A stretch of 64,000 nt of DNA from contig BQMF02000616.1 in NCBI GenBank assembly GCA_027922465.2, positions 62,001-126,000 on the forward strand. The letters are read 5' to 3'. Positions 6,516 to 40,580 of this stretch are shown here, in pieces. Source of the stretch: Turritopsis dohrnii. Taxonomy: Eukaryota; Cnidaria; Hydrozoa; Anthoathecata; Oceaniidae. Both the position numbers and the translations under genes were made by a program. The notes beneath the pieces are model-generated. The model was not told where the DNA came from and did no database searches. It saw only the letters and a program-made list of their open reading frames with translations. Numbering within the stretch: the first letter of the stretch is position 1; each line of letters starts with the position of its first letter.

Positions 6516-6531
6516 GTATGTCCGCTAAATG

Positions 6532-6795
6532 AATGAAGTGAATAAAAAACATGTTCGATAAGAAGCGCATAATAATTAAAAAAAGAAATTAAATTATTTA
6601 AAGAAAAGCAAAAAAATATTTTGTTTCATGATACTCTTTTTTTTTTACTCATTTTGATTTCTCGAAAAAAATTTCACCCGCCTCAGACAGTTAACCAAGC
6701 GTTAGGATATACTTGCAAACCAAACATACTACCACGTTCTGCCACTGCTGCTTTTTGTCCAAAATGTTTAATCAGTTAGTTTCTTTGTCACGTCC
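6532..6795. repeat. Helitron-B fragment, right part of a split copy
   Basis: It continues the copy broken at 373: aatgaagtgaataaaaaaca, the tttcacccg..ctcagacagt block and the gctgctttttgtccaaaatg block are all shared with Helitron-B copies at 46.0-46.4 and 48.5-48.8 kb. Similarity ends near 6,795; 6,796-7,045 shows nothing recognisable. Confidence 0.7.
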
Positions 6796-7045
6796 GTTTG
6801 CAATACACAAGTTATTATGCGCAGGCGCTAAAAACATGCGGTTTTCATAATGGCGTCTGGCTTGGGTTTCCAGTCACGAAAATATAGCAAGATTTTATTA
6901 ATTTATAACTGTTTGTTGTTTAACGCTTCTGCATAATTAGGGCCGCTGACCGTTTTATTTCGCAGGCACAACTATCGTATAAAGCATGTGAGCAATCATC
7001 TGGAACAAAATACACGAGGTTGTTTAGTTATGAAGTGTTGAACTC

Positions 7046-7276
7046 ATGACAGTCGTAGAAGCGAGTTTTTGTGCCTTACAGGGAGAGTGGATTTATGAAG
7101 TTTCAGAAGTTTTCCTGGATATGAATCGAATATATTTTGATAGATTATTAAATTTCCTCAACGTTGATACCAAACATGTCACGAACCCAATTTTTTTCTT
7201 GAGTCACGAAGTTGTGGAAGATGTTGTAAATTTGCAGGCACTGGAAAGATCGAAAATATCTGAAATGCAATGGTAA
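7046..7276 (+). CDS. Unrecognised small ORF convergent with the RAG1-like gene
   Basis: It encodes 76 residues with no domain I recognise, and could be an exon because tgcaatg/gtaaat at its end resembles a splice donor. It lies tail-to-tail with the RAG1-like gene, the orientation of RAG1 and RAG2 in known RAG loci, but the sequence shows no kelch repeats or PHD finger, so I do not call it RAG2. It may well be spurious. Confidence 0.2.
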   Translation: MTVVEASFCALQGEWIYEVSEVFLDMNRIYFDRLLNFLNVDTKHVTNPIFFLSHEVVEDVVNLQALERSKISEMQW

Positions 7277-7351
7277 ATATGTTATTATCTTAAAGAACTA
7301 ACTAATTATATGTCAATGAACTTATACCCGGAACTATTACATGTTTTTGTG

Positions 7352-10300
7352 TTACTCTTCTCTTTCTTTTAGTTTTCTGGATACTATTTCTGGTTTTAAC
7401 TTTTGACCAGCTGGAGATTTCCTGATGAAGTGCTCCTTCATCATAGCCTTCAATTTACAAATATTCGATGGCATTCTGCAGTAAATGGCCTTCAAATTAT
7501 TGAATTCAGGGTGAATGCTTTCACCTCCTTGCTCTGCATACAGGCCAAGTCCTGAACTCCATTTTGAAGCAAAAGGCACTACATGATCCTCAAGTAGATG
7601 CATCTTGGGAGTGACACTTTCAGTTGGCCACTGAACACGGAAGTAACTCATCAGATTGATAATTGCATTATCTGAATGAACAATATTAGCATTAAAGAAC
7701 ATCTCATAGCATTGAGGTCTCCTTATATACTATAAAGTATATATACAAACCTAATTGAGCTAACTTTTCATCATTGAAGAAACTGGTAGAATTCATTAAG
7801 ATATGACATCTGCTGTATTTCAAAAAAAGCTGTTTGAATTGTTGGCATAACATAATTGATTCTTGATGAATTTCAGTACCAGCAAATCCCATATTTTTTA
7901 TAAGAATCGGAATGGAGTTACACAGTTTGATAATGTTCTCCTCCTAGATAATGTAAATTATTTTTTTAGGATAGCTTGAAAAATCAAAATCCTCCAAATG
8001 CTGAAAAAACAAGTCATGAAAACTTGGAAAGTGTTCAAAGTATGATTTACTGATGGTATGACATTAGCTTTAACATTTTATGTACATGGTTGCCAACAAA
8101 GCTTTTGCCATGATACGCTTGTCTGTGGACATGGACTTCTGATAAAAGGTTGTCAATTCGTTTCACACACAGCCCCACATTTCTGTTGACATCGCTTTGC
8201 CTTATTAGTTTATCAATTTGTTTTTCCTGTTACAAAGATATTTGATACATTAAAATCATTATACTTCTGGAAACTAAAAAGCAAAAAGTTGTAAATCACC
8301 TACTTTTTCTTACATCTTTTTCTGTAGATGCTCTAATCGGGGCAGATAAATGGCTTTAATGTCGCTTTCCTTGTCTGGTGCTTTAAGGATATTTTCGGCA
8401 ATTGCGTCATATACTAAAATATTGCAATAATAAATACATTAAAATATAATCTTTTCATTCTGATTTTAAGTGTAAGAGAGTTTGATTTATATTACCTAAA
8501 ATAATTTTTTCATGACAGTCATTGACAGTATTTTGCAGTTCCTTAATTTGGGATTGCAACTCGGCGAAATGTTTAATTTCTTCCATTCCTGCATTACTTG
8601 ACTTTTCTGCAATTTTTAAATCAAGTAAATGACATCGATCTTCAAACATATTGAAGAATTTCAAATATATTCCAAGAGATATATGAAGACCTGGTGGTGC
8701 AACCTAAATTTTGATGAATAATTAAATTTAGAATTGCATAACTATTTCTTTAAAAATATTAATATTATGTTGTACCTGATCAATAGGGATATTAAAGAAT
8801 GGTTCGCTAATTACATTGTTAAACAATTTAGCTTGCTTAATGTTGCTTCCATTTGTTTGGAAATTATTGTAATCTTTTGTAAGAATCTCCAATGTTCGGT
8901 TTTGAAATCTACCACAATCATGGAGAGTCTTTTGCATCTCTGAGGTTGTGATAGTGCAAAACAAGCAACAGTGACGTCCTGCATGAAATAATATCATTCA
9001 TAAATTCACTTCTAGGCTTTTTGTGATGGCGAATGGCCATGACAAGACTTACCATTTGCACCAGTCAAACCATACATGACACAAAGAAATTCGTAGTCAC
9101 CAAACATGAACAACGAATTGGTTTTCTTCTGAAAAGGAAATTTTTAGAAGATAGTAAAGTGTAGTAAGAAAAACTAAAAAGTGTCTTTTCTAACATTAGT
9201 AAGTACTTACTGCCAAAATAATCTCTGTAGCAGATCAATTTCTACTTTGAAACGAGACAGTGTTATGTTTAAATTGATTCTTTTGTCTTTCGATTTGAAT
9301 AGAGAGAAGACAATTGTGTTATTTTTGCTGTTTGGTTTGTCGATGTTGACAACCTGATAACACATCTTAAACGATCCACCACTGTGATCTCCACCAACTT
9401 TCACGTGAATCTCACCGTTACATGAAGGTATTTCAACCAAGCGATTACATCTAGAGAAATGTAAGAAAAGTGTTTATACATGCATTAGCAATCATGTCAA
9501 AATAGTCTACAAAACCTACTTGCTTAAATTATCGATATAGTTGGTAATATTTTCTGGCAAATCTTCAATATATGCCCATGGTGCGGAACAGATTTCATAT
9601 ACACCTTTCTGATATTTTGCTTCAAAGCTCAAAGGTGTCTCTTCTACTTTAAGATTACTTGATGACCAAGAAGATGCTACTTGTCTCTGTTTAGCAGAGG
9701 ATGCGGCTTTGATATTGAATGATTTAAGCCATCTAAAGTTTATGTAATGTTGTTATGAGCTGTATCATATGGTAAATGGAAGTAATAGAATAATGAACTT
9801 GCCTAGCCATTGTCTGTAATTTAGTCCAGGGTATACCAATGTCTGCTTTTAACGCAACCAAAGCTTCAGGGCCAATTTCAATCGGAGAAATGTGTGCTTC
9901 CTCTAAAAATTTTTTTCTCTCTTCTTCTTTAAAAGATTTTACCAGCAAGGAAGTTTGATGGAGTTTTGATGTTGTATCACTTCCTGATGTGTGACTTAAA
10001 CTTTGTTGAAGGATTTTTGTTCGATTCCGTAAAGTGCTCTTTGATGCTGTGGAGTTCGATGTGTAGGCTTTTGGTGTTGTTGTTATAAACAAAGGCTAAG
10101 ATATAGGAAATATAATATATATAAACAATTGTACTTGATGTTCATTTTATTTTTAAATAATACTCTCAAGTTCTGAATAAGGGTGGGTGGAATAAACAGA
10201 GTAAGTAGAAAAAAAATTAGCATGCTTCACATGTATTCCATTTCTCTAACTAACCATTTCTCATTCCCACAGTAACAAGGTTGGAAATGTTTGCAATTAA

Positions 10301-11712
10301 ATGAAAGGCTATTGTTGTAATTTTTCTTTGTAATTCAAAGACATCCTGACCTGTTAATTTGGAACTTGAGAGTATTTTTTTTGGTCCAAATTTTTTAAAC
10401 TATTACAATACAATTTTATTTCATTGAAAACTATATAAAGATCCTTACCCTTGGTCCACCTGACTTAAATTCTGCCAAACCAGTGGTACTTTTAGATAAT
10501 TTATTTTTCTCAACATGCAATACTGCATCCTCTACTTCTCGAGGAATAGGTGTTTTTTCATCCAGTTTCATCCAGTCTACCGACTGGTAGCCTTGTGGTA
10601 GAGTGCTCGCTTCCTGTTCGGGAGGTCGCGGGTTCAATCCCTGACCGAGTCAAGACAGCGACTATAACAGTGTGAATCACTCCTCTCTGCTTAGCACTCA
10701 GCAAGAGAGTAGGAATGATGTCTAGGGTGGTTGTCTAGTTGAGCGGTTTCTGTCATTACAGCTTCCGTAGCCCAAATGGGGACTTTAAATGGTCTAGGAC
10801 CTCCTTCGCAGGACCCTCATTGATAACAGTACCTTAAAGAACTGAAGAGGCTATCCTGGGTAAACATTCGTAAATAAATAAAATAAATAAATTGAAATAT
10901 ATCGGAAATCTTCATTTCTTTTTCGCTGTGTGGGCCAATACAACTTTTTTCATGCAGTATTTTGTTGTCATATTCTGTCATAGAAAATGTAGCTCTACAT
11001 TCTTTAGGACATTCAACTTTAAGGCATAATAGCATGTTATTAACTGTCTTTGCTTCAACAACATCGTGAAAGTTACTGCCACATGTTGGACAAACTGTGT
11101 CTCCTTTATGTTTTCCCTCGATGTGTGGAAAAATACATTCCAAGCAGAACGAATGTTGACAAGATAAGGTTACAGCTTGTTTAAAAATATTGTTGCATAA
11201 TTTGCAGGTACATAAATGAAGATGTGGATTGATAACTTTTGATACATTGGTGTTGGGCAAAGGAACTATTTTGATTATTTCCTTCAATCTATTTAAAACG
11301 GGCCTGGTCCACATAGTGTTGTCAGACTTAGGTCTCCCTCCTCGTCCTTTTCTTTTCACTGGTCGTCCACCTTTTTTGTTTGAAACAGTGGCTAATTTAC
11401 AGATTAAGCAGTCTTCAGTGTGTGCAGTCCACTGGTTTATTTGTAAGCTATTTTCGAAGGTGGTATTTCTCGAAATAATGTTTCTCATTTTTCTCAAACA
11501 CTTGCTGCACATGTTTGGTGTGGGTGTGTTTCTGTTGAGTCATTTGCAATATCGATATAAAAAGCTGTTTTTATTTCTTCTGTCAATTCCTTCACTTCTT
11601 TGGGCTTATCTTCAATACAGATACTGCAAACCCTGCATAACAACACGAGGTTTTCTTTGTGTGTACTTGAGCATGCTATGTTTGAGGGGGTATGATACCG
11701 ATCAATAACCAC
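7352..11712 (-). pseudogene. RAG1L: RAG1-like transposase gene, copy 1 (multi-exon, interrupted by a SINE)
   Basis: RAG1 is the DDE nuclease of V(D)J recombination; relatives are transposases. Read 5' to 3', the first exon (11,712 to 10,449, with a SINE inside) gives an LCRVC motif, a CSKC motif, W..H..DCLIC, then a C3HC4 RING (LCTCKLC...CQHSFCLEC...CPTC) and a VECPKEC module, matching RAG1's N-terminal order. Later exons are about 10,095-9,803, 9,732-9,520, 9,450-9,211, 9,128-9,053, 8,978-8,776, 8,703-8,496, 8,413-8,314, 8,226-8,080, 7,950-7,750 and 7,700-7,352. Candidate catalytic residues are D in GGDHSGGSFK, D in FGDYEFL just before the zinc module GRHCCLFC, and E in AEQGGESIH. There is a frame break near 11,500, a SINE at 10.58-10.89 kb and unclear frames near 8,050, so it is probably inactive. 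The intron after 9,803 starts with GC. Family identity is strong; exon ends are by eye. Confidence 0.85.
10582..10892 (+). mobile_element. tRNA-derived SINE inserted in the RAG1-like gene
   Basis: The head 10,582-10,652 is tRNA-like: A box tagccttgtggtagagtg, B box gggttcaatccc, ends GACT...GAGTC. A tRNA-unrelated body of about 200 bp follows. The tail tatcctgggtaaacatt plus (aaataaat) repeats matches the 3' end of the LINE at 55.70-55.78 kb, so the SINE was probably copied by that LINE family's enzyme. It lies antisense within the RAG1-like coding exon and breaks the frame between the VECPKEC module and the SGGPRV motif. Confidence 0.82.
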
Positions 11713-12149
11713 TAGTACAAAATTTTAAATATTTTCATTAAAAAAATTGGGCCTGCCAAGAAATTTACCCACAGTGTAGAGAAGAGGTATAGGTTTGAGG
11801 ATCAGTAGAGTTTCGTGGCTAATAAACTTTTAAACTTGTTATTGCTAATTCAAAGTAGAGGTTATTTTTGCATGTGGCTGCTTAAATAACTTCGTAGTTT
11901 TCGCGCCAGGACGATCGTTGAATGTGCTTTTTGTTTGCAACATTCACAGAATACGAAACCTTGGTCCAACTGAAATTGGACAATTTACTTTTTTATTGGA
12001 ATTTTGGCTTGATGGAGCCCAAAATAAATGATTTTTTGAGGGTACATGTGACCAAATATGGCGGATTCACCCTAGGCGATCCGTAAACAATTTTTTGAAA
12101 AATCCACGCATGCGCATAATAACATAAACAGTCGTAGCATGATTTAAAC
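11713..12149. other. Spacer, no gene seen
   Basis: AT-rich sequence upstream of the RAG1-like gene. A single CACAGTG occurs at 11,770 but no matching partner or nonamer was found. Any promoter or inverted terminus of the RAG1-like element would be expected here, and none was recognised. Confidence 0.4.
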
Positions 12150-12405
12150 GGACGTGTTGTATTTAGTATTGTTTTCGAAGACAAGTGACCGTGGTCCTTG
12201 GAATATAAAACTAACAATAATAATAAAAACAAAACGTTATTTCTATTGGTTCACCAGCCAAAAAAAGTCACGTTTGATTGGGGTTGCAATGTATTTGCTT
12301 CGAACTCACGTCCCACAGAAAAAAGAAATAATTTCGCTCACAACTCAATCTACCATTTTGCGTTACTTCCAAACAAACAGACAGAATCGGCTATTAATAT
12401 ATAGA
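12150..12405 (-). mobile_element. Helitron-B 5'-end fragment
   Basis: Shares the blocks ccttggaatataaaactaac, gttcaccagccaaaaaaagt and caatctaccattttgcg with the other copies and ends, on the minus strand, with the Helitron 5' terminus TCTATATATTAATAGCCGA..., adjacent to a T at 12,406 as expected for insertion between A and T. The 3' half is missing. Confidence 0.7.
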
Positions 12406-12419
12406 TTGAGGAAATGATT

Positions 12420-12700: not shown

Positions 12701-13490
12701 GTTTGAAATGCAAACCGATCGTCGTGTAGCCAAAAATTGTATACTTCCATTTACATGAAATCAATACATGAAGCGAACAGTTTTTTCATTAAGTTACAAA
12801 CACGATCTTGTTTTTACGTATTTTGTTGTTTTACAAATTGTGATATTTTATTCAGTTATAATGCCGTAACTATTCAGTTTTATAAGAACAAGAGTAACTT
12901 GGACGTTGGGAACGAGGTTGCCTGTAACAAAAGACTCATTTAATACACTGATTTGTTGAGGGTGTTTCCTTAAAGGGATCCTGAGATGAAAAATCATATT
13001 AAATAAACACACTTACTAATTAGAAAGAAAGTCAGGTGTTTGGGTTATATTTTCAAAACCTGAACCATACTTACAAACTCACGTTACTAATACTCACCAA
13101 CTTCTCTATTTTCAAAAGCTTCGAGCTCTTCTCTTCGGCACAAATCAAAATACTAGCTCCAGGACTCTGCGCGGTCAAATGTCTTTGTGACGTCATCTTT
13201 ACCGTGGTTTTGAAAAATGGCTTAACTTAACGTAAACACTCGCGGAAAAATACGTGAGCTTTTTTCTTTCAAATAAATTACAAACATTTATACTATTAAA
13301 ACACAAAATTTTCTAGTATTTTCCCTTCATACAGAAAGTGCGAAGAATTATTATATATGGAATTTGTCGAAAGAAAGTAGCTTAGCAGAATTTCAAAAGA
13401 TTTAAAATCAGAAAGTAAAAGTAAAAAGCAGGTAGTTTATAATTCAGATTACGACGTTAGCATTTAAAACATCATTTTAAAATTTTAAAA

Positions 13491-16356
13491 ATGCCTCACT
13501 GCGCTGCCGTTGGTTGTACAAATCATACAGATACGCGAAAGGATTTGTCATTCCATGCTCTCCCTAGCACAAACAAAAAAGTGTTATGTCAAGCATGGAT
13601 AAACGCGATACGAAGGGAGACACTTCCGAAGGTTTGCTTTCTATGTGCGGAACACTTTGAAGAAAGTTGTTTCGACTCCTCATATGATTGCAAAATGAGA
13701 TTGATGCCAGGGTCATCGCAAGTTAAGAGGAGGTTAAATAAAGACGCAGTACCAACAATTTTTGCTTATAAAAAGAAAATTCAGGAGCGACCATTATCAC
13801 GCAAAAGATGTGAAGTCAAAGATCAACAAACGGTAGGATAAAATTTTATTTTTTTATTCATAGCCAACCTAGCTTTTATTACCATTGCATTCATAGTAGT
13901 AGTTTTTCATCACTGTCACGAGATAATTGTATTTTATGATAGAGGTTAGTTAGTTTTATTTTTCATTTTTTCATTTTTAGATTATGGACGAATTACTTTT
14001 GGAAGACAGCTGTTCGGAAATTCTGCAACCAATTGATTTTGAACCAGTAAATGTAAGCGTTCATTCCCAAACCGACAGTTTGGTGGCAGTGGATGCATCC
14101 ACGCAGACAGACGTAGTATAATACAGCTCATGCTGAAACGTCTGCAGCTTCTTTGAGGATTAGAGAAACTCGGAGTAAATTTACACAGTATAATCTGAAA
14201 GATATTGGTGTAAACGTAAAAGAAACAACTAAGTCTTTGCAGTTTCCAACGCCCAAAAAGCAAAGGTAACATAACAATCTGTTGTTTGCGGAGTTGATTG
14301 TTTTAAAAGAAATTTCAGTTTGTGTAAACCGCATTGCGTATTTTAGATATCAATCAACTTCATCAAGTAGTTACAGTGTCGGTGAAGAATACGCTCATGA
14401 CTTGAATGATATGAATTATGACGGTGGTGAAAGTGATTCAGTTGATGATAGTCATGATTCTGATGTTGAAGGTGATAGTAACTGGGAGGAAGATGTGTTA
14501 AAAAAGAATGCAGAGGGAGTAGGATATGTAAATAACGAAATTGTAAATAATGAATTAGTTGTAAATAGATATGTAAATAATAATGATGAATACGGCGTGA
14601 ATGAAATTTGTGGGGAAAGTAACATAAATGTGGATGCGGTCGATGCTAATGATGTTGAAGATTTTGATGGCTGTGATGATTTAGATAAATCCATTGTCGA
14701 TGCCGGTGATGATGATAAGGATCCGGATTTTGTTCCATCTGTTGACGTTGATGTTTCTTCAGACGAGTTTGTTGATGAGGTTGTAAGTTTTAAGGATCAT
14801 TTGCTCCGTGATAAAGTTTTTTTGATATTTGAAAGTAAATTATATGAACTTTTGAAATACTGTCCGTGTTGTGGTAATGGGTTAGACAGGAGCTTGATTG
14901 AAGATGTTAAAAATCAAGGAAGCCAACTACATTTGAAGTTGAATTGCTTGAATGGATGTGCATTTGAGTGGAAATCACAACCTGAAGTGCCGTCTGTTAA
15001 AGGTCTGGGAAACTTGTTTTTGGCAACAGCCATTGTCTTCTCCGGTTTGCCGTTCAGCAAGTTTGTGCAGTTCGCTTGGTTGCTGAATCTCAAGTGTTTC
15101 TCAGAAAACACGTTCTACAGGATTCGGAAAGACTTTATTTCTCCAGTGGTACGAAAAATGTGACGTAAAGAAAGAAAACGAGTCTTTAGCTGTTTGAAAT
15201 CAAAAGTAAAGGTGGTTGTAATAGGAGATGGAAGGTGTGATAGCCCAGGCCATTCTGCGAAGTATTGCACGTATACATTGATGGAAGCAAATTCTGGGAA
15301 AGTAATCGATACTGTTGTAATTCCTGTTACAGATGTTGCCAATTCAAATGCAATGGAGAAAGCTGGGTTTATCAAAGCAATGATGCATTTGCAAGAAGAA
15401 GGCATAAATGTTCATACGGTTTCTACTGACAGACACACACAGATTCGGAAACTGATGAGGGTTGATCCAAGATTTAAAGGTACTTTTATTAATGTTATCA
15501 ATAATAATGTTATTGCGTAATATTTATTTATACGAAAATACAACATTATGTTATCATATTAGATATCAATCATCAAAATGATCCTTGGCATGTCAGTAAG
15601 GGGATATCGAAGAAATTAAATAAAGCAGCTCAAAAAAAGGCTCATTAAAGCATATTAGAATGGATTCCATCGATAATAAACCATTTTTGGTGGAGTGTCA
15701 CTAGCAGCGATGGAGATCCTGAGCTCATTACCGAAAAATTAAAATCCATTGTATTCCACGTCACTAACAGACACAAATGGCCCGGAAACAGAAAATTTAA
15801 GCAATGTGCCCATGAAAAGTTATCCAAGAATGAAGAAAAATCGATAACTTGGATAGAAGAAGGTTCTGAGGCGCATAAAGCATTAAAGTCAGTCCTTTGG
15901 CATAAGAACCTGTTAAATGATGTTAAGTACCTAACAGAAATTGTCAATACCACCAGTGTCGAAATTTTTAACAATCTAATTCTAAAGTACTTACCTAAAC
16001 AATACCATTTTGAATTCGAGCACATGGAAATAGGCGCATTTCTAGCTGCGCTAGATACTAATGCTAACGTCAACCGAAATCAAGCACAGTTACGTAAATC
16101 AGAGGATGAATCAAAAATAGGCACACCACGTTTTAAAATAGCTTGGCGTAAAGCAACAAAAAAAAGAGTAGCACGTGTTGTATACGAACCCAAAAATTAC
16201 GACTACCTCAGGAAAGGATTCCTGTCTGTTTGCAAACGTGCGGAATTTGGAAAAAAGAGAAAACCTGCTAAAAAGCGAGTTATGGCACCAGAAAGTGGAG
16301 AAACCAAAAATGAGATCATAGAACGTCGACTTAAATATTCTCGATTCCAAAAGTAA
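13491..16356 (+). pseudogene. THAP-domain Kolobok transposase, decayed
   Basis: Exon 1 (13,491-13,832) encodes a THAP zinc finger: MPHCAAVGC near the start, a W-containing middle, CFLCAEHF, and a terminal AVPTIF. Exon 2 runs from 13,981 to a donor after KKQR at about 14,267; exon 3 is 14,346-15,479 and contains an acidic linker, a CPCC...C...C zinc motif and the first catalytic motif VIGDGRCDSPGHS with VSTDRH as the likely second; exon 4 (15,563-16,356) has DPWHVSKGISKKL, INHFWW and a C-terminal FEHMEIGAFLAALD block that may hold the acidic third residue. Splice phases agree across all three introns. Defects: a +1 frame shift near 14,119, TGA at 15,161 and TAA within 15,646-15,648. It would cut and paste the element at TTAA; this copy cannot make a full protein. 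Confidence 0.85.
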
Positions 16357-18880: not shown

Positions 18881-19028
18881 TGGCCCACCGAGCAGGATTA
18901 AGGTTTAGGTTTAAGTATATTTTTGACTTTAAGGTTATTTTTTGATGTCTGGGTTTCCATGTTTGAATTAAGTTCTCGTGTATCTTTGAGAATATTTTTA
19001 TCGAAGTTTGTTTTTGTTGTCTTTCAAA

Positions 19029-19652
19029 ATGGTCGATGTAGAGAAACGAATTAGAACTAGAAAAACTATAGTGACTTCGATTTTTCAACTTTTTGAAACA
19101 CAAGTTAATAGTATTTATGAAATAGACGATTCTGTTGATCTGGACACTGTTATTTCTTATAAGGAAACAATTTATTTACAACTAAAACGTGTGGTTGAGC
19201 TTGATGAAGAGATAAGCGAACTTTTAGTTGATCATGATTCCGAACTAGGGGATCACATTTTCGATTCTATGCAAACACAAGTGAAAATTAAGTCAAAATT
19301 AAAACGTTTGGAACGATTTATAAGTAAAATTTCGAGAGATGAAAGTACACTTAGCGTAACACCGTCTGTGACAGCACCTTCAGCGTCTGTAAAACTTCCA
19401 AAAATAGAGATAAAACGGTTTTCTGGAGACCCCACTGAATGGACGTCTTTTTTTGATTCTTTTGAAGCAGCAATTCATAAGAATGAAGGATTATGTCAAG
19501 TGGAAAAAATGAATTATCTAGTTAATCTATTAACAGGAGATGCTGCTGCAACTATTAAAGGTTTGAAATTGAGTAATGACAACTACGATACTGCTCTGAA
19601 ATTGCTTAAAGATAGATTTTCAGATCCGCAAATCCTGTTTCGTCACATATGA
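19029..19652 (+). pseudogene. gag: BEL/Pao gag, N-terminal part
   Basis: The likely start is the ATG at 19,029. A coiled-coil-like acidic N-terminus is followed by LPKIEIKRFSGDPTEWTSFF and the MNYLVNLLTGDAA block, the conserved Pao capsid-type region (often annotated DUF1759). The frame ends at 19,652 and continues in another frame from about 19,649, so a small indel lies near 19,640. Gag would package element RNA in cytoplasmic particles. Confidence 0.85.
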
Positions 19653-20998
19653 AAGAACTTTTAAATTTTGAATGTATCAGTGACATAAACAATGTCAAAG
19701 AATTGAGATGGTTGTATGATCGTATTGAAGCTCAAATAAGATCTTTAAAACACTTAGGAGTAGAACCGTCAAATTTTGGTCCAATGTTAGTTCCGGTTTT
19801 ACTTTCAAAACTACCAAGTGAATTTCAGCTAATAATTAGTCGACAGTTCGGCAAAGATGTTTGGGACATAGAGATTATCACAAAAGTCTTTAAAACAGAA
19901 CTTGAAGCAAGAGAACGTATTTCTACTGCTACAATTGATAAGGAAAACGAAGTATCGTCTGGGTTTGCGTTACATTCAGGCAACAGTAATTTTAGGAAAG
20001 AAAATAGATTTTATAGTTCCGCAAAATCATTTCTGACATGTGTATTTTGTGATAAAAATCACAAATCTCAAAATTGTTTCATTGTCTCAAACCCTCAGGC
20101 GAGAAAACGCATAATTATGTCACGAGGAAATTGCTTAGTTTGTTTAAAAAGCGGTCATTTTGCTAGAGACTGCAAGTCTAAAATATCATGTTTTAAATGT
20201 AAACAACGCCACCATGTCGCTATTTGCTCTTCTCAAAACAAAAGGTTCACAAATCAGATCACTCTCAATGAACATGAAAGGCAGGTGCCAGAAACACAAA
20301 GTAGTTCTCAAAATATAATTGGCTCCACCCAAAACATGCACAAGGAAGTTTTCTTACGTCAGCAAGAGTCTGTTTTATTACAAACAGCACGTGCCTCTGT
20401 TTTTTCTGTAAACGAAAAATGTTGTAGGGATTTGAGAATTTTATTCGGTAGTGGCAGTCAGCTTTCTTACATTACGCCACGTGCACGTACCTTGTTAAAT
20501 CTAGAAACAATTTCACAGAAAACCGTGAATATAAAAACATTCGGCGAAATACAAACTAGAAAAAAATTAGATTTAGTCAAGTTTGTTGTTAAAACTAAAG
20601 ATAAAAGCATGAATTTATATGTGAATGCACTCGTAAGTGACGTATGTTTTCCCATAGAAGGACAAAATATCAGGTTTGCTACTCAAGAATTTTCGCATTT
20701 AGAAGGTTTAAAATTAGCTGATGAAAACCCTCAAAATCTTCCACTTGAGATTGATATATTGATAGGGGCTGATTTCTATTGGAATTTCTTCAATTCTTCA
20801 GTGATTAAAAGTAGTACAGGAGGCCCTGTTGCTATGTCCTCCAAGTTAGGATGGATATTAAGTGGACCGATTAACTCCAGAAACAAAACCGGGTTGTCTA
20901 CAAATTTGGTTACAAGTACAAAGCAGAGGTTATGGACGAAAAGGTTTCCTTTCAGGATTCACTTAGAAATTTTTGGAATACAGAGAACATTGGCTTAA
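19649..20998 (+). pseudogene. BEL/Pao gag C-terminus, zinc knuckles and protease
   Basis: Continues the capsid region, then three cysteine/histidine clusters (CVFCDKNHKSQNC, CLVCLKSGHFARDC, CFKCKQRHHVAIC) typical of nucleocapsid zinc knuckles, and an aspartic-protease region with ILIGAD and LGWILSGP further on. The expected D-S/T-G active-site motif reads FGSGSQ here (codon GGT at about 20,449), so the catalytic aspartate appears lost. A frame break near 20,930 separates it from the reverse transcriptase. Confidence 0.85.
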
Positions 20999-21764
20999 AC
21001 CCTATTGATTTTTCCGTAGTGGAGAATTTCAAAGAAAACATTAAATTCCAAAACAATTGTTATCAGGTCAGATTACCGTTTAAGGAAAGTCATGATACTT
21101 TAGGTGATCATTACCAGTTAAGTTTAAAACGATTAAAAAGTTTAACTAAAACATTTCAAAATGATCCTGAATTATTACGTAAGTACGATGAAATTTTGAA
21201 TGAACAAATGAAACTTGGTATGATTGAACACGCACCGGACGATGTTCATGTTGGTTACACTAATTATTTACCCCACAGACCTGTTTTAAGACCAGATAAA
21301 TCTACCACTAAAATTAGGATAGTATTTGATGCCAGTGCTAAAGGAGAAACACTGTCACTTAATCAGTGTTTACATTCAGGTCCATCATTAACACCTAGTT
21401 TATACGGCACTCTTTTAAAATTTCGTGCCTATAACATAGCAGTTGTCAGTGATATTGAAAAGGCATTTTTGCAGATTGAACTACATCCTGATGATCGAAA
21501 TTTTGTACGTTTTTTATGGTTTAGCGATGCCAAGAGAATAAATTTTGAAGATTTTGAGAAAAATAATTTGACAGAGTATCGTCTATGCAGAGTCCTATTC
21601 GGTGTTGCATCATCACCATTTTTACTCACTGCTACATTATCCTTTCATGTAAATAGTTATAGCGATGATGAGAAATTTAAAGAAAAATTACTAGAATCTC
21701 TACACGTGGATGATTTAAATTCAGGAGAGAACACAGAAGAAGACGCATTTCAGTTTTACAAAAA
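20932..21764 (+). pseudogene. pol: BEL/Pao reverse transcriptase, N-terminal part
   Basis: Contains the conserved palm motifs of Pao reverse transcriptase: RIVFDASAKG, LNQCLHSGPSL, VVSDIEKAFLQI, FLWF and HVDDL (the YVDD-equivalent box). The frame is cut at 21,764, where the 10-bp target TTTACAAAAA is followed by the MULE; pol resumes after the second copy of that target at 27,123. Confidence 0.9.
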
Positions 21765-21780
21765 CGTACTTTATAAAACA

Positions 21781-21905
21781 TGAACCGACCAGAACCGACC
21801 AGAACCCACCAGAACCCACCATGAACCCACCAGAACCCACCATGAACCCACCAGAACCCACCATGAACCCACCAGAAACCGAACAGAACCCAGCAAAAAT
21901 CCACC
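21781..21905. repeat. Left tandem-repeat arm of the MULE
   Basis: About 25-bp higher-order units (atgaacccaccagaaccca variants) in five or so copies, with an 11-bp substructure. It is mirrored by the array at 27,027-27,110. Confidence 0.9.
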
Positions 21906-22207
21906 AATACGCACAATGAAAAAAGAAAATCGACCAGAGAACGATCAGGAATAGTGGCTTGATACCCTGGCGCCCGTTTCGAGGCTATCATAGACGAAAT
22001 GACTCCATATTACGTCAATCAAACTTCGTTTCCAGGACATTTTGCGATACCCTCATACAGCAGTTGTAAAAATTCACACTTAGCTTGAAGACAAGGGTTG
22101 AAACCATTCCTTAGTCAGAAGGATACAAAGCAAAAACAAGGACAAATCTAGCCAAAACAATAACAACTTTTTTAAATGATAAACACAAGATAAAAAACAA
22201 GGAGCGT

Positions 22208-25200
22208 CTACAAATCTTCAAACAAGCATCCTGCTTCAACCAATTTCGATATTTGGCTGTCTGTTAGATGTGTTTTAGTTTTCTCTGGAACGGTGATGGC
22301 TGCAAAATCAAATTTTTGATCGTGACCTTTTAAACAGTTTGTTAGGTAATGAAGGTATACATTTCCAGTGTTTTTGCGTCGATTTCCTTGAGAATCAGTA
22401 TATTCCCGGACAGCGCTTGTCTTCACTGCAATAACGTCTGCTGACGTAAAGGATATCTTGCATTCTTCACACCTTTTGACGTTGCTGGGAAACGATGATT
22501 TATCTTTTTTGTGTACTAACAGGTAAATCTTGGAACTGGTACGGTTTGGATTGAACACGTCAAGAGCAGGAACAGCAGTTTTACCTTTCGAACTGACTTT
22601 CCACGAAGAGGTAGTTTTCTTAATTTTCAAAGGAGTGACGCAGGCATTTGGTTTTGATACTTGAGAATTTTGACTCACAAATGTATCAGGTTCTGGTAGT
22701 CTGGCACGTCTTTTTTCTCCAGGCTTCTTTTTTGATCCTGCATCTGCTGGTTTAGTGTACTTCTGGAATCCTGTCGGTGAATAGGAAAGAAAGGATTCAA
22801 AATGTTGAGTCTTTCTATTGGCATTCATACGCACCCAATTGACGGGGTTGACAAAAAACTGGCGGTATCCATCTGCAAGACGATATTTTCCTTGCCCAAT
22901 GATAGCTTTCCGAGCTTCATTCAGGTAATTTTCTTGAATCCACTTTGTTAAAGCTATACTAGTGGAAGTAACGTCAGAAGGAATCGCTAAATCACTCAAT
23001 TTCTTTTTCAACAAGCGGTGTTTTAATTCCAGACTATTTGAATAGAATCTTTCCGATATTCCCAGTAATTCTCGAGCTGAATGGACTAGGCATGTTTCGA
23101 AAATCACAAGTCTTTTCTTACAAAACCATTCGTAAAACCCTGGAACTAAATCTTCCCATATATCTTTCAACGATTCTACCTTTACTGCAAGGTCCTCTGG
23201 ATCCAATGCATCAGCAAGACCATCTTGTACAATGCTATTGACTTGGCATCCATATATGTCAGACATTACGCGATTAATCGTTCGCTGGTTTGCGTTCATT
23301 TTTCTAAGTTTTTCTTTGTCAGCACCCTGCAAATGCTGTGTGCACCACATGTGAGTTGCATTTGGTAGTAAATCCACCAATCCCTGTGCAGTAGCTTTGT
23401 CCAGGTCATGTCCAATCTTCTTAATATTTTGCAAATCTGGATTGGCAATGATTAGCTCTCCAACAATGCGGCGAAATGACAGTTGATTTTTTCGGAATTG
23501 CCACTGGCTTGGCCCAGGAAAGTGCGGATGTTTTCCATTTTCATCTATCAATGACTCGTTTTCGTATGACGAGTCAGTCAACCACAATTTTTCAGCAACT
23601 TGAAAGGTGGTATCGACAACAAATGTGGAATTTCCATCAACACAAAATCGTTTCAAATCATTGATCATATGAGGTAGATAATTCACAGAGGAAAAGCTGT
23701 CTTTGTCGAATCTGACGGTTTGAACAAAACTGTCTCCATGAATTAAATCGATTAAAGTCTCTGCTTCACTTTTCTCTGTAGCACTACTTGATGGTTTCAT
23801 TTTTTGTTTTTGGTTGTGAACAAACCTAGGATTGTTGATCATTTCACTGACGGAACCTACTGTGTCGTTCTTTTGGCTCAGCTGCACATAGACCTCATCA
23901 ACAGATGTACCACATGAAAGCTTTTCATGAACTTCAGAAAAAAGTGATGGATCCTTGCGATAGTAGCTAGCAGAATGAGATTTTTTAGCATTTCCATGAC
24001 GTTCAACCAAAAAGTCATCTTGATGTTCGATGCTATCATCGGTCCAGCGTGACAAGTACATGAAGTATGGATGTGGCATGGATTTGGTTACCTTTCTTAC
24101 AACAGCAATCATATTGTAGAATTTGTTCGACTTGCTATGGCGATACTGACGAGTCAATTGATAAACTCTATCTGCATCCACAAACTCTTTCTTGTAAATT
24201 GGCCGTGCAGTGGCAGCTGAATTGTCACGTTTGTTTATAAAATATTTGTTTTCTGCATTTTTATGCACCATTGAACAGGAACCATTGCACCAAAAGAAAT
24301 ATTTGCTGCTGTTTCCACGTTTGCTGTATGCTCCATTGTCATCAGCTCGAGCAGATGCTATGCTGATTTTTTCCATATTTAACGTACACATGAAATTATT
24401 TCTTCGAGCTGCTGAAGGCTTGACATGGGATTCAAATTCTTCTGGGTTATTCAGCAAGACATTGAATATTATCTCCGCCCGTTCAAAGTCAGAGTTCGGG
24501 AGCTGCGTCAATTTTTCCTCATCCAAACTTTTGTTTTCTAATTCCGCATCTGAATCTACGACTACAACAGACCCACTGCCTCTGTCATCCACAGAATCAT
24601 TTTCCAACCTAAATGCATGTATGAGTCTCTTATAAAACAATCCTGCATAAAACAATCACTTGCAACCTCGTACCTAGGCCATCTTTTTAGCGAATGTCCG
24701 TTCATCAAAAGGAAAAGAGACCCTGGGTACGAGGTTGAATCACTTAAAGAGAAAGTTTCTAAAGGCTATGCGAACTGATGTGTTTACTGGATGCCAGTAA
24801 ATTGATGAATATGCTGATTATTTGTTTGTCATTATCAATATGCCTAAAACATTTCAAATGAAACAGAAATTTTAAAATACAATGCTAAAACAAAAGTTTC
24901 AACAATAGGGTGCTTCGTATTTCAACGTGACCATGAAAAGAAGACTTCCGAAAATTTATTAAATGAAAAAAACAACCTCGAACCCAGGGCCATATTTGTC
25001 TCTCTTTCGGTTTTCGCAATTTCATGGCATCCAGTAAACATTTACAGATTAATTAACAAAACAATTACAAACATCAATTAAAATGCAATTACTTACTTCA
25101 CAAAACTGGGAGTAAATTTTGTAATTTCAATTTCTTCCTCGTCACTTTCATGAACAAAACCACCTTCATTGGTAAACTTGGAATTTTCTGAAAAAGAAAG

Positions 25201-25359
25201 ATGTTAATAATTGCTAAAATTGGAATAAGGTATCTTCAAATCGCATAAAAGCATGTTGCTAGATCAAAAATGTGAGTCCATGGCAAAAGGAAACGGTAGA
25301 AAAAACAAATGATAATAATAAGACAGAAAAACAATATTACCTGCTCTGAAAAAACTCAT
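22208..25359 (-). CDS. MULE-type transposase (three exons)
   Basis: Exons 25,359-25,341, 25,187-25,097 and 24,608-22,208 join in phase across GT-AG introns, giving about 836 residues without a stop; the start ATG opens MSFFRA. The DDE region has STFVVDTTF (first D), IGHDLDKATAQGL (second D) and, directly after, WCTQH, the CxxH motif placed between the second D and the E in MULE transposases; a glutamate in KWIQENYLNEARKA is a candidate third residue. The N-terminal third contains a cysteine/histidine cluster (WCNGSCSMVH) and the C-terminus a further CEEC...HYLTNC cluster, probably DNA-binding zinc sites. It should cut the element at its foldback ends. It is the only intact gene in the nested BEL/MULE structure. 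Confidence 0.88.
24662..24737. mobile_element. Tiny palindromic MITE in a transposase intron
   Basis: 76 bp with ends CAACCTCG/CGAGGTTG as inverted repeats and flanking 8-bp duplication AATCACTT (24,654-24,661; 24,738-24,745). Its ends resemble those of the 2.2-kb element at 56,630-58,852. It lies in the second intron of the MULE transposase gene. A related single end occurs near 24,975. Confidence 0.7.
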
Positions 25360-27026
25360 CTTGGCTTCGTCTATTAAGTTCACTTCGATTGAAAAAAGAG
25401 TCTAACGAAAAGCGACTGTTTGCGATCTGCAATAATGAATCGAAATGATGCGTCAGTTTCTTCTCAAATATTCTCATTGAAAAGTGAAACACAAGGCCTC
25501 TATTGTTTTTCTTTATGTTTAAACCCTTTGCCTTTATCGGATTCCGTAAAAATCGCCGAGATTGGTTCAGCAAAATATTTTTTCTCTTAAAGGTGCTACG
25601 TGCTTAAATTTGATAATAGGTTTTCGTAATACAATGTGCCACAATTTTTGTAAATCACGTAAGCATTAATGATTAACGTTTTTAAAACGTTTCAACGTTT
25701 ATAATGACCTAATTTACACAAAGGTTTATTCAATATCAATAAAGAAAAATTCTGGTGTATAAGATAATACATCCACCAAAAGAAACGTGAGGAAATTTTA
25801 TTACATCAACCTGCTATGATGGGTGTTGCAGCTAATCCACGATTTGGAGTTCTTACAAAGAAAGAAAAAGAAAAAAATATAATAATGGAATGATAATGAA
25901 ATAAAATTAAAAAAAATCTTTTTGAATTTTTATGACAAGCTTTTTATGGAGTTTCATTTGTTGTTAGGGTTAGAATCTATCCTTTTATTATTATCAATAA
26001 GAGCTCACATATTTATTGAAAGTGAAAAAAGAAACACAAATGAATAAATATACTTCTAAACCATTTATCGATAGCTTGAGAATTGCAAGAGAATTCACAA
26101 CCTGAATTCAGACTCAGGATGTTCTTATTTTTTTCGAATTTTTTGGTCAAATCTGAGGCTTGTGTTCTTAAGAAGCCGTTTGGCTTAAAGACTTCAGGAA
26201 AGTGTCATAACGACACATATACTCTCAACAACGCAACATTGCCGAATTGCCAATTTTGTTCAAGTTTGACAACATGACCGTCTAATTCGAAATCAGCAAC
26301 ATTCAATTGTGCTTTGTGCAACTTTTATGTGAAATTGCGAATTTGTAAACGACTTCATGTAAACAATGCACGAAATCACGGGTATTTTAAACACTTTACT
26401 CCACCACGGGTGTCCTAAAGTCAGAAAACGTGTATCCCGAGTTACAATTACGAAAGGAACTTTGTTGTATAAAGAACTATAAAAAATGATATGAAGTGAG
26501 CAAGAAAAAATTCACAGTTCTCTGAGTTACAGATGAGTTATTTGCTTCCTTTCAACAAAAGTTCGGTAGCATTCTTATTTCTTACACGAAACTGTTGCAT
26601 GAAACTATTATATCTGTATTATTTGTTAATCAGTTTGAGACAACTTTATTTATTTCAAAATTCCCAACATCAACTATTGTAATAATAGTATAAAAGAAAG
26701 GACCTGAAGCCGATGTTCCACCTAATCGTATACAGGAGACCGGGTGATCCTGGGTCTCATCTATGGCATGTAGGGGTCTGGTTCCCAGTTCCTATATATC
26801 GCATGTCACGATTTAAATAATGCACAGATAAATTTTTATACATAAAAATATGATTTGTTTACTGTACAAGTCAAGGAAATTATTGCGCTTTCAAGTAAAT
26901 CCACTTTGCAAAACTGGAAAACACATAACGTTGTCATTCACGGTAAAATGACACAACTACTGCGCGAAATGAAATTTCTATAGCATTCCATAATCCGATA
27001 ATGTTTTTTTTTTCGTGGATCCTTGC

Positions 27027-27110: not shown

Positions 27111-27122
27111 ATATCAAGTACG

Positions 27123-35015: not shown

Positions 35016-37137
35016 ATGGCGCAAGCATCCCTTGATATGCACACGACATACTTGACAAAGCTTTGCCGTGTTTGTGGTGGCTACTTAAGCCAAGAAACTG
35101 GAGAAATTGAAGCCACGAATTGAAAAAGCTTTTAACATTAGTTGTGTGGAAGACGTTTCAGATATCCACCCTGACAAAATTTGTCACAACTGTTATTCGA
35201 AGATAGTAAATATCGACAAACGTGGCACCTCTTTTAACATTTGCTTACCTTTTGCATGGACGCAGCATCCAACATCAAACAATCCTGCAAAGTATGTGAA
35301 CACATTCTGACCAAAAGTAATGGGGGAAGGCGCAATAAAACGGGAAGCCAGCATATTGTTTGGAATGTTCCATGCTGGACAAGAAATTCGATTATTGAGT
35401 TGCAAAAGCTTAATACTCCGAACACAATCAAGTTAAATATCTCGAACATAGACACTGACAAAAACCCACATTTACATTTATGCATTTGCAAACTTTGTCA
35501 CGATAAATTTTCCAATCCCTTCAATATTAACAGTTGCGAACATACATTCTGCTTGAAATGCTTATGTCCAAAAATTGAGGGGCGAAGAAAAGATGACGTC
35601 CGATGCCCTACATGCGAAAAAAATATTTAAAAGATCACCCCAAACGAGACAGTCCTTGGATTAATTAAATGTATCAACGTCAATTGTTCTCGTGGTTGTG
35701 GCTTATCGTTTAAGCAGGACAAATTATCACAACACGAGTCGTGTTGTCAAGGTCCTCCTCCTCCTACTGCTGCTGTTACTCCTAACTACACGATAAGTGA
35801 TGACTTTAAAATTGATGAAAATACAGACATTCCCGGACCTATTGAAGACGCAGCACTACACGTCATTAAAAATAAAATGGTAAAAAAACTATCGACTGTT
35901 GTTTCATTCAAGTCAGGGGGTCCTAGGGTAAGAAGATTTAGACATTTCTTATATCTTAATTAACAACAAATGTTTTTATCAGAGGCAAATACAGAACATA
36001 TAGTTGAATATAGACAAGCAAGTTATTTAAGAAAGAAAAACTTGTAACACTGATAATAAAAGATTGCACTCATCCCTTGATATTTGATTATGTTCTGTAT
36101 TCCCTCATGTATATCTACTGAATAAGATATTGCATTCTTTTCAATTCTATTCAAGTTAAAAATACTCAGAGTTTCACGCTACTGCGATCTTCAGATGCAG
36201 TATTTGCAATGATAAAAATGTCTTGTGCAAGAGTTAAAAAACTCAAAAGTCATTAAGAGGCGTCCGGAGGGACGTGTTTAATGTTATGGAGATAGAACAA
36301 GTTCAACAAGTTCTACGCCATTTTACATCATATCAACCCCAAGAGCCTACAAGCAAAGTTCCCAAGCTTCAAAACAGACTTTAAAAAACAGGTGCAAAAC
36401 ATTAAAGAGCAGTTTGAAAACTTTAGTGGGAGATGATGGTGACTCTCAAATTAAACAAACTGCTGTTCTTTTAAAAACATTCAACGAAAATGAAAGAACG
36501 AAGCTTTTAAGAGAAACCAAAATATCACCCTTGCCATTACATCTGAAGCTATGGTTGGCATGAAATCTGACATGGGCATTCCCTGGCGGAAACTTGCTAT
36601 CATGGCCAGGTTAGGATGATGCGTATACTTTAACATTTAGGTCAAGTCTTGCTGCTCCACATCGAACTTTATATGTGCTTCCTTTAGATGGCTGAAGTCA
36701 TTTGATGTCAAACCAGCATCAATCGGGAAGCAACAATTCGAGAAGCCGAACAGCAAAGATAATACTGTTGTATTCAATCTATTTGAAGCCAAGGACTATA
36801 CAGTCAATCTTAAAGTTGCACTTTCTTGTTTCAAGAGCAAATTGACAAATTGCAAGGCCTTACCTGGGAGTAAGAGATTTACTTATATTATAAATAATTA
36901 TTAATTAGCACTCAGCATTGTTGTTCCTTTATAGCGGCAAAAGAATTCCTGCATTTGTGTTTGGTGATTATGAGTTACTCACCCCATTGTATGGCATCAC
37001 AGGTGCTAATGGTAAGTCAAGGCATGAATGTGTGATCATCGTTGGTGATATATAATATTTAAATAATTGTTATCTAAATCATTCTTACTTCTCACAGGTC
37101 GGCATTACTGCTTATTTTGCACGATAAATAAAGGAGA

Positions 37138-39393
37138 CTAGCCGCCAAGGCAGCGTCGCTCGCCGCCCATGTTCAGCCTGCGTTGTATCACCACCTGCTC
37201 CAAATTATTGCACTTTAAACCAGCGATAAGACTTCCTTTGCTGCTGGCTTTATCGTTTAATAAAGCTCGTTTGCACGTGAAGAGAAATACGTTCCTGGTG
37301 TTTCAAATCTTGCATGTTCTTAACTCAGCCGTTCATTGTCGCGGTCGCATTTAAAATGTTAGTAAACTTTTTTGCTTTACACAATGCATTCCGAACGTGA
37401 ACTTCACGTGGTTTTTATTTACGATTTTAAACCAATCAAATATCAGTTTAACAATACACTCAAAACGCAGAGAGAAAAAACTTTTCAACTTATTATTAGC
37501 TTTTGTTTTACGCGCTCTAACATGGGTGCTGTCAGAAGTAGGTGAAAAAATGGCTTTTCTTCTTAAAAAGATCACACGGGAGGAGAAAAAAATGCACGTG
37601 CTAAATGAATGAATTGAATAGAAAACGTTCGATCAGATTAAAATAGATTAAAAGAAATCGATTAAAAGAAATTAAGACAAAAGCAAAAAAAAATATTTTG
37701 TTTCATGATTCTCTTTTTTTATCGGTTTTTAAATATTTTGATTGCTCGAAAAAAAGTTCACCCGTCTCAGACAGTCACGAAAGGGTTAGGATACACTGGC
37801 AAACCGAACATTCTGCCACTGCTGCTTTTTGTCCAAAATGTTTAATCAGTTAGTTTCTTTGTATTTAGTTGATGTATTGTTTTCAAAGCCAAGTCAACGG
37901 TGGTCCTTGGAATATAAAACTAACAATAATAATAAAAACAAGATGCCCTACCGGGCAGAAGGATTTCTGCAAGCTTTGCTGCTGAAAATGAAACAAAAAT
38001 GCAACCTAGATTCGTCCTGCTAAACTAAAACAGTCACATCATTCAACTCGAGAAGCATCAGCATTAAATCAACAGAAATGTTGATGCGATTGACAATGTT
38101 CGTCAAGAAAGTCAGTCTACATTAACGGAAAAAAGAGGCTTTTCTTTATGCTACGGTAGAGATTATTTATGAAGATCTATTGGTACGAATAAGCGGAATG
38201 ATTGTTACTGGATATTTGCCACCCACGTACTCCAAAAAGTGCATTGACACAATACGAAACTCTAATTTAACCACATCAAACATAATGAATTATATAAAAA
38301 GATTCTGTGTATACTGGCGGCAACCAATACATCATTTGGACAGCACAATAATTATATAAAGTTTCTACATTGATCTCCTCAGGATGAAAAAGATATGTAA
38401 TATCACAATAATTGTTACTTAGAAATTAAAATTCATATCTAATCTAAAAGTTAAAAAAAAAAAACATACATAGGGAGCAAAGAGATATGGTGATATAGCC
38501 AGAATACATCCAAACATTGCTAGTAAATATAGTATAAATAGCTGTATTTAGAGTAATTATGTTGGTGATGCTGGGGGGAGCAGCTGAAAGGAAGCTAAGC
38601 TGAGCTTTAAGAATCCAAAAGCTTCTAAAAATTGACTTCAGACATCCGTACACATACAAATACACAAAGGTCTTTCATATTTAAAAAGGCTTGGAGCAAA
38701 AATAAAACAAGAAATACCTTTTCTTCCACACCATGTATTGGCATTGTTTTCATATTTTAAACTTCAAGAAAACTTCTTTCAAAAAACCGAATAACCACGC
38801 TGTAATTTAATTTTGTGAACATGACAAGTTCCCAACAGTAATGCAATTCTTTATATAAAATTATAAGCTGTATTAACTTCTTTTAAATCCATATTTTCAT
38901 CAAAGAAACTTTTAGCAAACTACACACGTTACTAGTCACACGTTTTTTCGCTGCCATTTTTAAAACGTTTTGAAGACGATCACATGGCATGGCGAAAATC
39001 AGCCAATGAACTATCGCTATTGAAGTTAAGGTGGCTAAATTAACACCCTTTCTTAGTAGTCGGGCATTATGCGCCAATGACGGTACAGACGGCTTTTCTA
39101 TCGACCAATGAAATTCGAGAAACAAATATGCGCCGGTTTGGACAGGATGAAAAAAAAAAAAAACAGAAAAACACGGACGATCGTAAAGTATTTCTTGCTT
39201 ACGCAGAAATCCAACAAAACGTTATCTCTATTGGTTCACCAGCCAAAAAAAGTCACGTTCGATTGGGGCTGCAGTGTATTTGTTTCGAACTCACGTCGCA
39301 CACAAAAAAAGAAATAATTTCTCTCACAACTCAATCTGCCATTTTGCGTGACAGACAAACAAACAGACAGAGAATCGGCTATTAATATATAGA
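37138..39393 (-). mobile_element. Helitron-B, unit 1 of a tandem pair (contains a Helentron)
   Basis: On the minus strand the unit starts TCTATATATTAATAGCCGA and ends with the hairpin GCCGCCTTGGCGGCTAG (here with one change), i.e. 5'-TC ... CTAG-3' with a 3' hairpin, the Helitron signature. It abuts unit 2 directly at 39,393/39,394. Excluding the nested 1,276-bp Helentron it is about 980 bp and non-coding. Confidence 0.82.
37937..39212 (-). mobile_element. Helentron-A inserted in Helitron-B unit 1
   Basis: On the minus strand it starts GGATTTCTGCG and ends with a hairpin (gcccggtagggc) followed by atcttgtt. Deleting it yields aataaa/aacaaaacg, identical to the uninterrupted Helitron-B copies at 12.23 and 40.05 kb, so insertion was between two T residues with no duplication. 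The inverted words GGATTTCTGC and GCAGAAATCC are placed asymmetrically. All of this fits Helentron/Helitron2 biology. Non-coding. Confidence 0.78.
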
Positions 39394-40207
39394 CTAGCCG
39401 CCAAGGCGGCGTCGCTCGCCGCCCATGTCCACCTGCTCTGTATCACTGTATCAATAAACGTCAAATTTCCTTATAAACGGCTCGTACAACCAGAAGCAGA
39501 TTCGAAGTCACAACCTCTGGTAAAACCAATCTTTTATCAGTGTAACAATACACTCAAAACGTATAGAGAGAAAACTTCAACTTTTTATTAACTTTTGTTT
39601 AAAAAAAGTTACGCGCTCTAACATGGGTGCTATCAAACGTAAGGGGAAAATGGTTTCTCTTCTTAAAAAGATCACACGGGAGGAGAGAAGAAAAGGCACG
39701 TGCTAAATGAATCAAGTGAATAAAAAAAACGTTCGATCTGATATAAAATAAAATAGATTAAAAGAAATCGATTAAAGACAACTATTATGACAAAAGCAAA
39801 ATAAAATATTTTGTTTTATGATTGTGATTTTTACCTATAGGTTTTTAAACATTTTCATTACTCGAAAAAAAAGTTCACCCGTCTCAGACAGTCAGGCAAG
39901 GATACGTTAGGATACACTGGCAAACCGAGATGCTACCACGTTCTCCCACGGCTGCTTTTTGTCCAAAATGTTTTATCAGTTAGTTTCTTTGTATTTAGTT
40001 GATGTATTGTTTTCAAAGCCAAGTCAACGTGGAATATAAAACTAACAAAATAATAAAAACGAAACGTTATTCCTATTAGTTCATCAGCCAAAAAAAGTCA
40101 CGTTCGATTGGGGTTGCAATGTATTTGCTTCGAACTCACGTCGCACACAAAAAAAGAAATAATTTCGCTCACAACTCAATCTACCATTTTGCGTGACTTA
40201 CAAACAA

Positions 40208-40239
<32 letters not shown>

Positions 40240-40262
40240 AGAATCGGCTATTAATATATAGA
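39394..40262 (-). mobile_element. Helitron-B, unit 2 of a tandem pair
   Basis: 869 bp with intact 3' hairpin/CTAG end at 39,394 and 5' TC end at 40,262. Together with unit 1 it sits between A (37,137) and T (40,263) of the RAG1-like exon; the exon reads through in frame when the pair is ignored. A (CAGA)n run lies at 40,213-40,240. Confidence 0.85.
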
Positions 40263-40580
40263 TATGCAAAAATCCAAGACTGAGGGAGGCTTGTCAACAA
40301 ATCCAACACTTGCAAACTTGAAATCCGATTATGAAAGTTTTTTGGCTAGTGGAAGCGACCACAAGAAGGCTAAATATTATAATAATGTAATAGATTGTCC
40401 GATGATCAACATTTCTATAACTCAGGTGAGTTTAGGAAATTTTAACTGACATAAAACACCAAGCTCTGAATGAAGTTTATGAACAATGATTTTGTTTGAA
40501 TTTTTCAGGTTGCTTTCCCAGTTCTACACATTTCCTTAGGTATTTACCCAAAGAATGAAAGAAAGAATAGACGCAAATTC

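Follow-up and report, generated by a model that had tools for sequence, protein, structure and literature searches.

The locus examined here raises the question of whether a hydrozoan carries a RAG1-like gene in which counterparts of both halves of RAG1, the N-terminal fingers with the RING and the catalytic core, stand together. It lies in a stretch of 64,000 nucleotides from Turritopsis dohrnii (contig BQMF02000616.1, positions 62,001 to 126,000), here called the window, and all coordinates are positions in that window. The gene is on the minus strand. An earlier note, made from the letters alone, had labeled it RAG1-like. We conclude, with a probability of about 95%, that it is instead the transposase gene of a dead copy (copy 1) of an autonomous cut-and-paste DNA transposon of the Chapaev superfamily, and neither RAG1 nor RAGL. 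Copy 1 belongs to an already described kind of element and is a real relative of RAG1.

RAG1-like domain order in a single gene

In minus-strand order, the N-terminal part of copy 1 contains LLCRVC (11643), HP..MCSKC (~11512), QWTAHTEDCLIC, the RING, and VECPKEC. The core follows with GGDHSGGSFK (~9400), FGDYEFL and GRHCCLFC (two exons, ~9110 and ~8979), and AEQGGESIH (~7540). The motifs singled out in the earlier note are therefore all present, in the order and within the range that it gave (7352..11712), but the unit is larger (6789-12156 including the ends) and its reading frame is broken. The matches are not attributable to chance because both clear their Pfam cut-offs, the RING (PF00097, 10817-11536) with 33.5 bits (cut-off, 21) and DUF1280 (PF06918), in the GGDHSGG exon, with 39.2 bits (cut-off, 25). 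The parts of the gene are as follows.

11506..11643, minus: initial part of the Chapa-type zinc fingers (LCRVC ... HPxxxC), with a frame break close to the 3' end (sub-cut-off PF12560, RAG1 alignment)
10892..11512, minus: second part of the Chapa region (CSKC, W-x-x-H, C-x2-C), basic GGRP stretch, RING, and post-RING finger VECPKEC (Pfam, RAG1 alignment)
10569..10891, plus: insert in the coding exon resembling a short interspersed element (SINE), boundaries approximate (copy 2, introduced below, is open here; 85 bp recur)
10449..10568, minus: coding exon ending SGGPR, at the place of GGRPR in the RAG1 nonamer-binding domain (copy 2 comparison, alignment)
9803..10095, minus: exon of the pre-core helical region, followed by a GC-AG intron (copy 2 comparison)
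9520..9732, minus: pre-core region exon (copy 2 comparison, splice sites)
9211..9450, minus: core exon with the first catalytic D (VGGDHSGG; RAG1 D600) (DUF1280 PF06918, hhalign)
9053..9128, minus: core exon with the second catalytic D (FGDYEFL; RAG1 D708) and a frame break close to its start (frames, hhalign)
8776..8978, minus: core exon with the C(2)C zinc motif (CLFC) (copy 2 comparison, splice sites)
8496..8703, minus: core exon with the LH motif (PGLHISLG) and helical insertion (copy 2 comparison, splice sites)
8314..8413, minus: core exon, helical insertion (frames, copy 2 comparison)
8051..8226, minus: core exon with RQAYHGKSFVGNHVHK (frames, copy 2 comparison)
7751..7943, minus: core exon (copy 2 comparison, splice sites)
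7352..7671, minus: last core exon with H(4)H (HLLEDH), the catalytic E (AEQGGES; RAG1 E962), and the stop codon (open reading frames, copy 2, hhalign)

The RING sits between the N-terminal fingers and the core. The finger pattern is complete, and the N-terminal half is collinear with residues 142-376 of mouse RAG1 (phmmer, E value of 4e-7). Ordinary, unrelated RING proteins reach an equal phmmer score over this half (best, 3.7e-7), and thus the link to RAG1 rests on the collinear fingers before and after the RING. The match of the first exon, which holds the Chapa-type fingers, to PF12560 (RAG1_imp_bd) was weak, at 17.4 bits with a cut-off of 23.3. When the N-terminal 290 residues were the query, a single protein, P0088, was recovered at E values up to 1 and the Hydra protein P0033, discussed below, was missed, which demonstrates the limited reach of that search. 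P0088 (913 amino acids) has tandem RAG1_imp_bd-like finger units (four matched stretches) and no DUF1280 match. Judged from its sequence, RAG1_imp_bd-like fingers exist apart from transposases too.

The exons of the core contain the Chapaev motif set (GGD, GDY, CLFC, LHIS, HLLEDH, and GGES), in columns that are conserved in relatives. The relevant part of PMC3985635 attributes DUF1280 to the transposases of Chapaev and groups it with RAG1 in one clade. RAG1 was the best fold match of the predicted structure of a Hydra relative, P0001, with equivalents of D600, D708, and E962, at 13-16% identity to RAG1 and BbRAGL in the structural alignment. The proposal that both RAG1-like halves, including equivalents of the three catalytic residues, are in one gene is thus borne out by alignment and by the predicted fold of a relative, and the C-terminal exons did not fall into an unrelated DDE family.

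Ends, target site, and broken frame

The limits of copy 1 are defined by the repeat into which it is inserted, further units of which are present in the window.

6789..12156, gene on minus: Chapaev transposon copy 1 with both ends, 5368 bp (ends from four empty target-repeat copies)
6785..6788, no strand: left target site duplication TTGT (single TTGT in the four empty units)
12157..12160, no strand: right target site duplication TTGT (empty units)
6789..6799, plus: terminal inverted repeat CACGTCCGTTT, left end of the element and 3' end of the gene (11/11 with the right end)
12146..12156, minus: terminal inverted repeat CACGTCCGTTT, right end of the element and 5' end of the gene (11/11 with the left end)

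In the empty units at 37859, 39989, 46355, and 48752, the left and right parts of the repeat overlap by exactly TTGT (4 bases). The element was therefore placed at 6789-12156, from four empty units that share a single TTGT, the sequence that flanks copy 1 on both sides. A fifth related unit (47024-47279) has no clean empty site and was left out of the count. Exact copies of CACGTCCGTTT occur in the window only twice, at the two ends. In shuffles of two 1-kb stretches around the gene ends, an 11/11 inverted pair appeared in 894 of 2000 cases, and such a pair with a 4-bp duplication in 8 of 2000; the real sequence has eight pairs, one of them with the duplication. Because 11/11 pairs are this common by chance, it is the empty sites together with the CAC start, not the repeat match alone, that define the ends. 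A 17-bp block at 6811/12107 was considered as the terminus and rejected because the empty sites put the ends further out. The target repeat has at least six copies in the window. The one hit by copy 1 is split into halves at 6524-6788 and 12157-12406, and the others lie at 37600-37941, 39702-40216, 46068-46613, 47024-47279, and 48459-49015.

The hallmarks of Chapaev given in part of PMC4079192 are duplications of 3-4 bp, CAC..GTG ends, and C(2)C, LH, and H(4)H motifs. Copy 1 has the CAC..GTG termini and the 4-bp TTGT duplication, and this duplication differs from the 3-bp TWA duplication of Chapaev3 and from the 5-bp duplication of RAGL. The latter difference bears on the possibility that copy 1 is a RAGL/ProtoRAG-type transposon or a domesticated RAG1-like gene. 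The order of N-terminal fingers, RING, and core is the same in those elements, and RAG1 is the best fold match, but the duplication is 4 bp rather than 5 and only about 560 and 510 bp of copy 1 lie outside the gene. No RAG2-like (kelch) match was found in the 18 open reading frames in or overlapping copy 1, a scan that did not take in every frame. Furthermore, DUF1280 is the family that the core matches, and its identity to RAG1 in structural alignment is about 15%, versus more than 30% for the closest transposase relative of RAG1 in the figures available from PMC4411706. We consider a RAGL-type origin very improbable.

An intact Chapaev element of this kind would be expected to encode a single protein that binds the CAC-starting ends as a dimer. 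Its D-D-E active site, in an RNase H fold with a C(2)C plus H(4)H zinc site as in RAG1 and Transib, would cut beside the ends, and joining of the freed element to its target with a 4-bp stagger would generate the 4-bp duplications. The Chapa-type fingers and RING would be the counterparts of the N-terminal fingers and RING of RAG1, and their sequence suggests that they probably have ubiquitin-ligase and regulatory roles.

Copy 1 can no longer make this protein in one frame and is dead, because there are frameshifts within the Chapa region and before the second catalytic D and because an insert of about 320 bp splits the coding exon after the post-RING finger. In copy 2, the frame stays open across the insertion point, and by eye P0001 and P0033 continue across it as well. 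In the tail of the insert, 85 bp recur at 55674-55751. The head of the insert aligned end to end with the Rfam tRNA model at 20.6 bits, under the cut-off of 29, and ARAGORN called no tRNA in the insert. It looks, from its sequence, like a tRNA-derived SINE with a weakly supported tRNA-like head. Copy 1 has about 10 introns. Among the nine examined, GT-AG or GC-AG borders were found exactly at the drawn coordinates in four and within one or two bases in five. These introns and the long conserved exons are what might be expected of a host gene domesticated from Chapaev. Against domestication stand the perfect ends, the target duplication and the empty sites that go with it, as well as the frameshifts, the insert that interrupts a coding exon, and the presence of copy 2, which is also broken. 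We consider domestication very unlikely for copy 1.

A second copy and known relatives

35020..40553 (about), plus: second Chapaev copy (copy 2), diverged and broken, in which the catalytic exons lie next to the RING exons; an insert at ~37140-40258 splits the copy

Copy 2 is 35-58% identical to copy 1 over matched pieces of at least 40 residues. It has the same order of finger, RING, GGPR, pre-core, and core exons and the same exon boundaries at GGPR and WLK. Its defects are two frame changes and a stop in the N-terminal half and the insert of about 3.1 kb; the end search found no ends for it. The insert holds two copies of the target repeat, starts by eye near CTAGCCGCCAAGGC and ends near CTATTAATATATAGA, and is perhaps Helitron-like.

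A search with the core identified 87 homologous proteins, the best from Hydra vulgaris (48% identity) and Hydractinia, with others in echinoderms, lancelets, acorn worm, sponges, corals; viral contigs yielded no confirmed relatives. Two predicted proteins of Hydra vulgaris, LOC124815234 (P0001; core 48% identical) and LOC124812501 (P0033), combine RING and DUF1280 core as copy 1 does. They differ in being predicted and partly truncated, copy 1 itself being broken. The suspicion that RING and catalytic exons might never be adjacent in sister loci is contradicted both by copy 2 and by these fusions.

N-RAG-TP of Aplysia was reportedly described by Panchin and Moroz in 2008. It has a RAG1-like N-terminal part in a mollusc transposon, as copy 1 does, but in the available part of PMC8355894 it is described as entirely RAG1 N-terminal-like sequence. 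On this analogy, and with an insert between the halves of copy 1, it might be supposed that an N-RAG-TP-like element and a separate DDE transposon came to lie together by chance. However, a single element, delimited by terminal inverted repeats and target duplications, contains both halves. Copy 2 again has them side by side, with exon boundaries at GGPR and WLK as in copy 1, and P0001 and P0033 have them in one protein, provided that these gene models are correct. We regard chance juxtaposition as extremely unlikely. N-RAG-TP itself is perhaps, by analogy, a fragment of Chapaev.

Kapitonov and Jurka are said to have described Chapaev DNA transposons with a Chapa domain plus RING in 2007. Chapaev elements with Chapa domain, RING, and core are covered by Kapitonov and Koonin in 2015, in part of PMC4411706, and thus RAG1-like architecture in Chapaev is already in print. 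The tree legend there lists hosts over four clades (Hydra, Nematostella, lancelet, Helobdella, and Aplysia), and the text names lancelet and sea anemone for Chapaev. RAGL transposons are reported from molluscs and nemerteans, and partial ones from cnidarians, in the pertinent section of PMC7204232. The view that only N-terminal fragments occur outside deuterostomes is therefore outdated. Horizontal movement of Chapaev is also on record, in an excerpt of PMC4079192.

As far as these partial accounts go, Chapaev with Chapa domain and RING shares with copy 1 the CAC..GTG ends, the 4-bp duplication, the DDE core with C(2)C/LH/H(4)H, DUF1280, and the order fingers-RING-core. The approximately 10 introns and the 11/22-bp end spacing discussed below are known for copy 1 and do not constitute a proven difference. 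RAG1 and RAGL (ProtoRAG; protostome RAGL, in the sections of PMC7204232 concerned) resemble copy 1 in the fingers, the RING in many, a GGRPR-like stretch, the RAG1 fold, D-D-E, and CAC ends but have 5-bp duplications, a linked RAG2-like gene, and a core sequence much closer to RAG1. Transib (HzTransib structures 6pqn to 6pqy), in contrast to copy 1, is presented without Chapa or RING in the part of PMC4411706 that treats it and, like RAGL, has 5-bp duplications according to the corresponding part of PMC7204232.

Several observations weigh against our interpretation. At the tenth intron, with the exon junction near 8313/8226, the frame is not kept with plain splice sites, and the open reading frame list gave no in-frame start codon for the first exon. 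Alignment of the core to one RAG1 sequence with hhalign gave a probability of 14.6 (E value of 0.0018) or 43.6 (3.9e-5), and RAG1 was absent from the PDB matches, at E values up to 10, of a profile built from 46 relatives. A single-sequence search of the PDB with the core gave just two weak, unrelated matches. The link between core and RAG1 is thus one of fold and motif order, not of strong sequence identity (~15%), and the structure is that of the Hydra relative, not of the window's own protein. Among the 46 aligned relatives, DUF1280 was detected in 45, any single RING model in at most 4, and RAG1_imp_bd in 1. The full architecture is a minority among these relatives as predicted, many gene models of which may be truncated.

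Copy 1 nevertheless provides a precisely bounded case of RAG1 domain order in a transposon in which no RAG2 was found, with distant similarity in the core. It supports the published view that an ancient transposase already possessed the fingers and RING and that RAG1 did not gain them late.

Unequal end blocks and neighboring features

A second conserved block lies inward of each terminal repeat.

6811..6827, plus: second conserved end block GTTATTATGCGCAGGCG, 11 bp past the left terminal repeat (end alignment, shuffles)
12107..12123, minus: second conserved end block GTTATTATGCGCATGCG, 22 bp past the right terminal repeat (end alignment, shuffles)

Inward of the CAC block at each end stands GTTATTATGCGCA[G/T]GCG, 16/17 identical, at position 23 counted from the left end and position 34 counted from the right end. 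When the two 49-base stretches were shuffled with their base composition kept, none of 1501 shuffles produced a match of this kind. The spacing is 11 versus 22 bp, or 15 versus 26 if the 7-base end block is used; these absolute figures depend on block borders and are not to be taken literally, the difference being that between 12- and 23-spacers. The family of copy 1 might use bipartite unequal ends (a CAC block and a 17-bp block separated by 11 bp at one end and 22 bp at the other, spacings that differ by one helical turn), much as V(D)J recombination signals differ in having 12- or 23-spacers, a suggestion that we consider unlikely and put forward tentatively, as unequal spacing in one copy fits a family trait and a single indel alike. 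If general, it would be a 12/23-like asymmetry, read by a RAG1-type nonamer-binding region, in a RAG1-related transposon without RAG2 and outside RAGL, either ancestral or convergent. Should other copies show it too, a simple transposon would become a system in which to test how the 12/23 rule arose. No report of asymmetric spacing in the inverted repeats of Chapaev was found in the open literature searched, which does not cover Repbase, and the end pattern had no match in viral contigs or in the genome contigs searched. A weaker inverted copy of the second block (ATTATGCAGAAGCG, three mismatches) lies at 6924-6937 on the minus strand, 136 bp inward from the left end, and its sequence makes it possibly a further binding site.

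Other features of the window are listed below.

13461-16356, plus: THAP domain (58.8 bits) followed by long open reading frames, possibly another transposase gene
18990-29878, plus: BEL/Pao-type retrotransposon frames (Peptidase_A17, integrase)
22208-24655, opposite strand: 815-amino-acid frame between the BEL/Pao-type frames, with no Pfam match above cut-off
60601-61821, plus: open frame of 406 amino acids with an rva_4 integrase core (96.9 bits)
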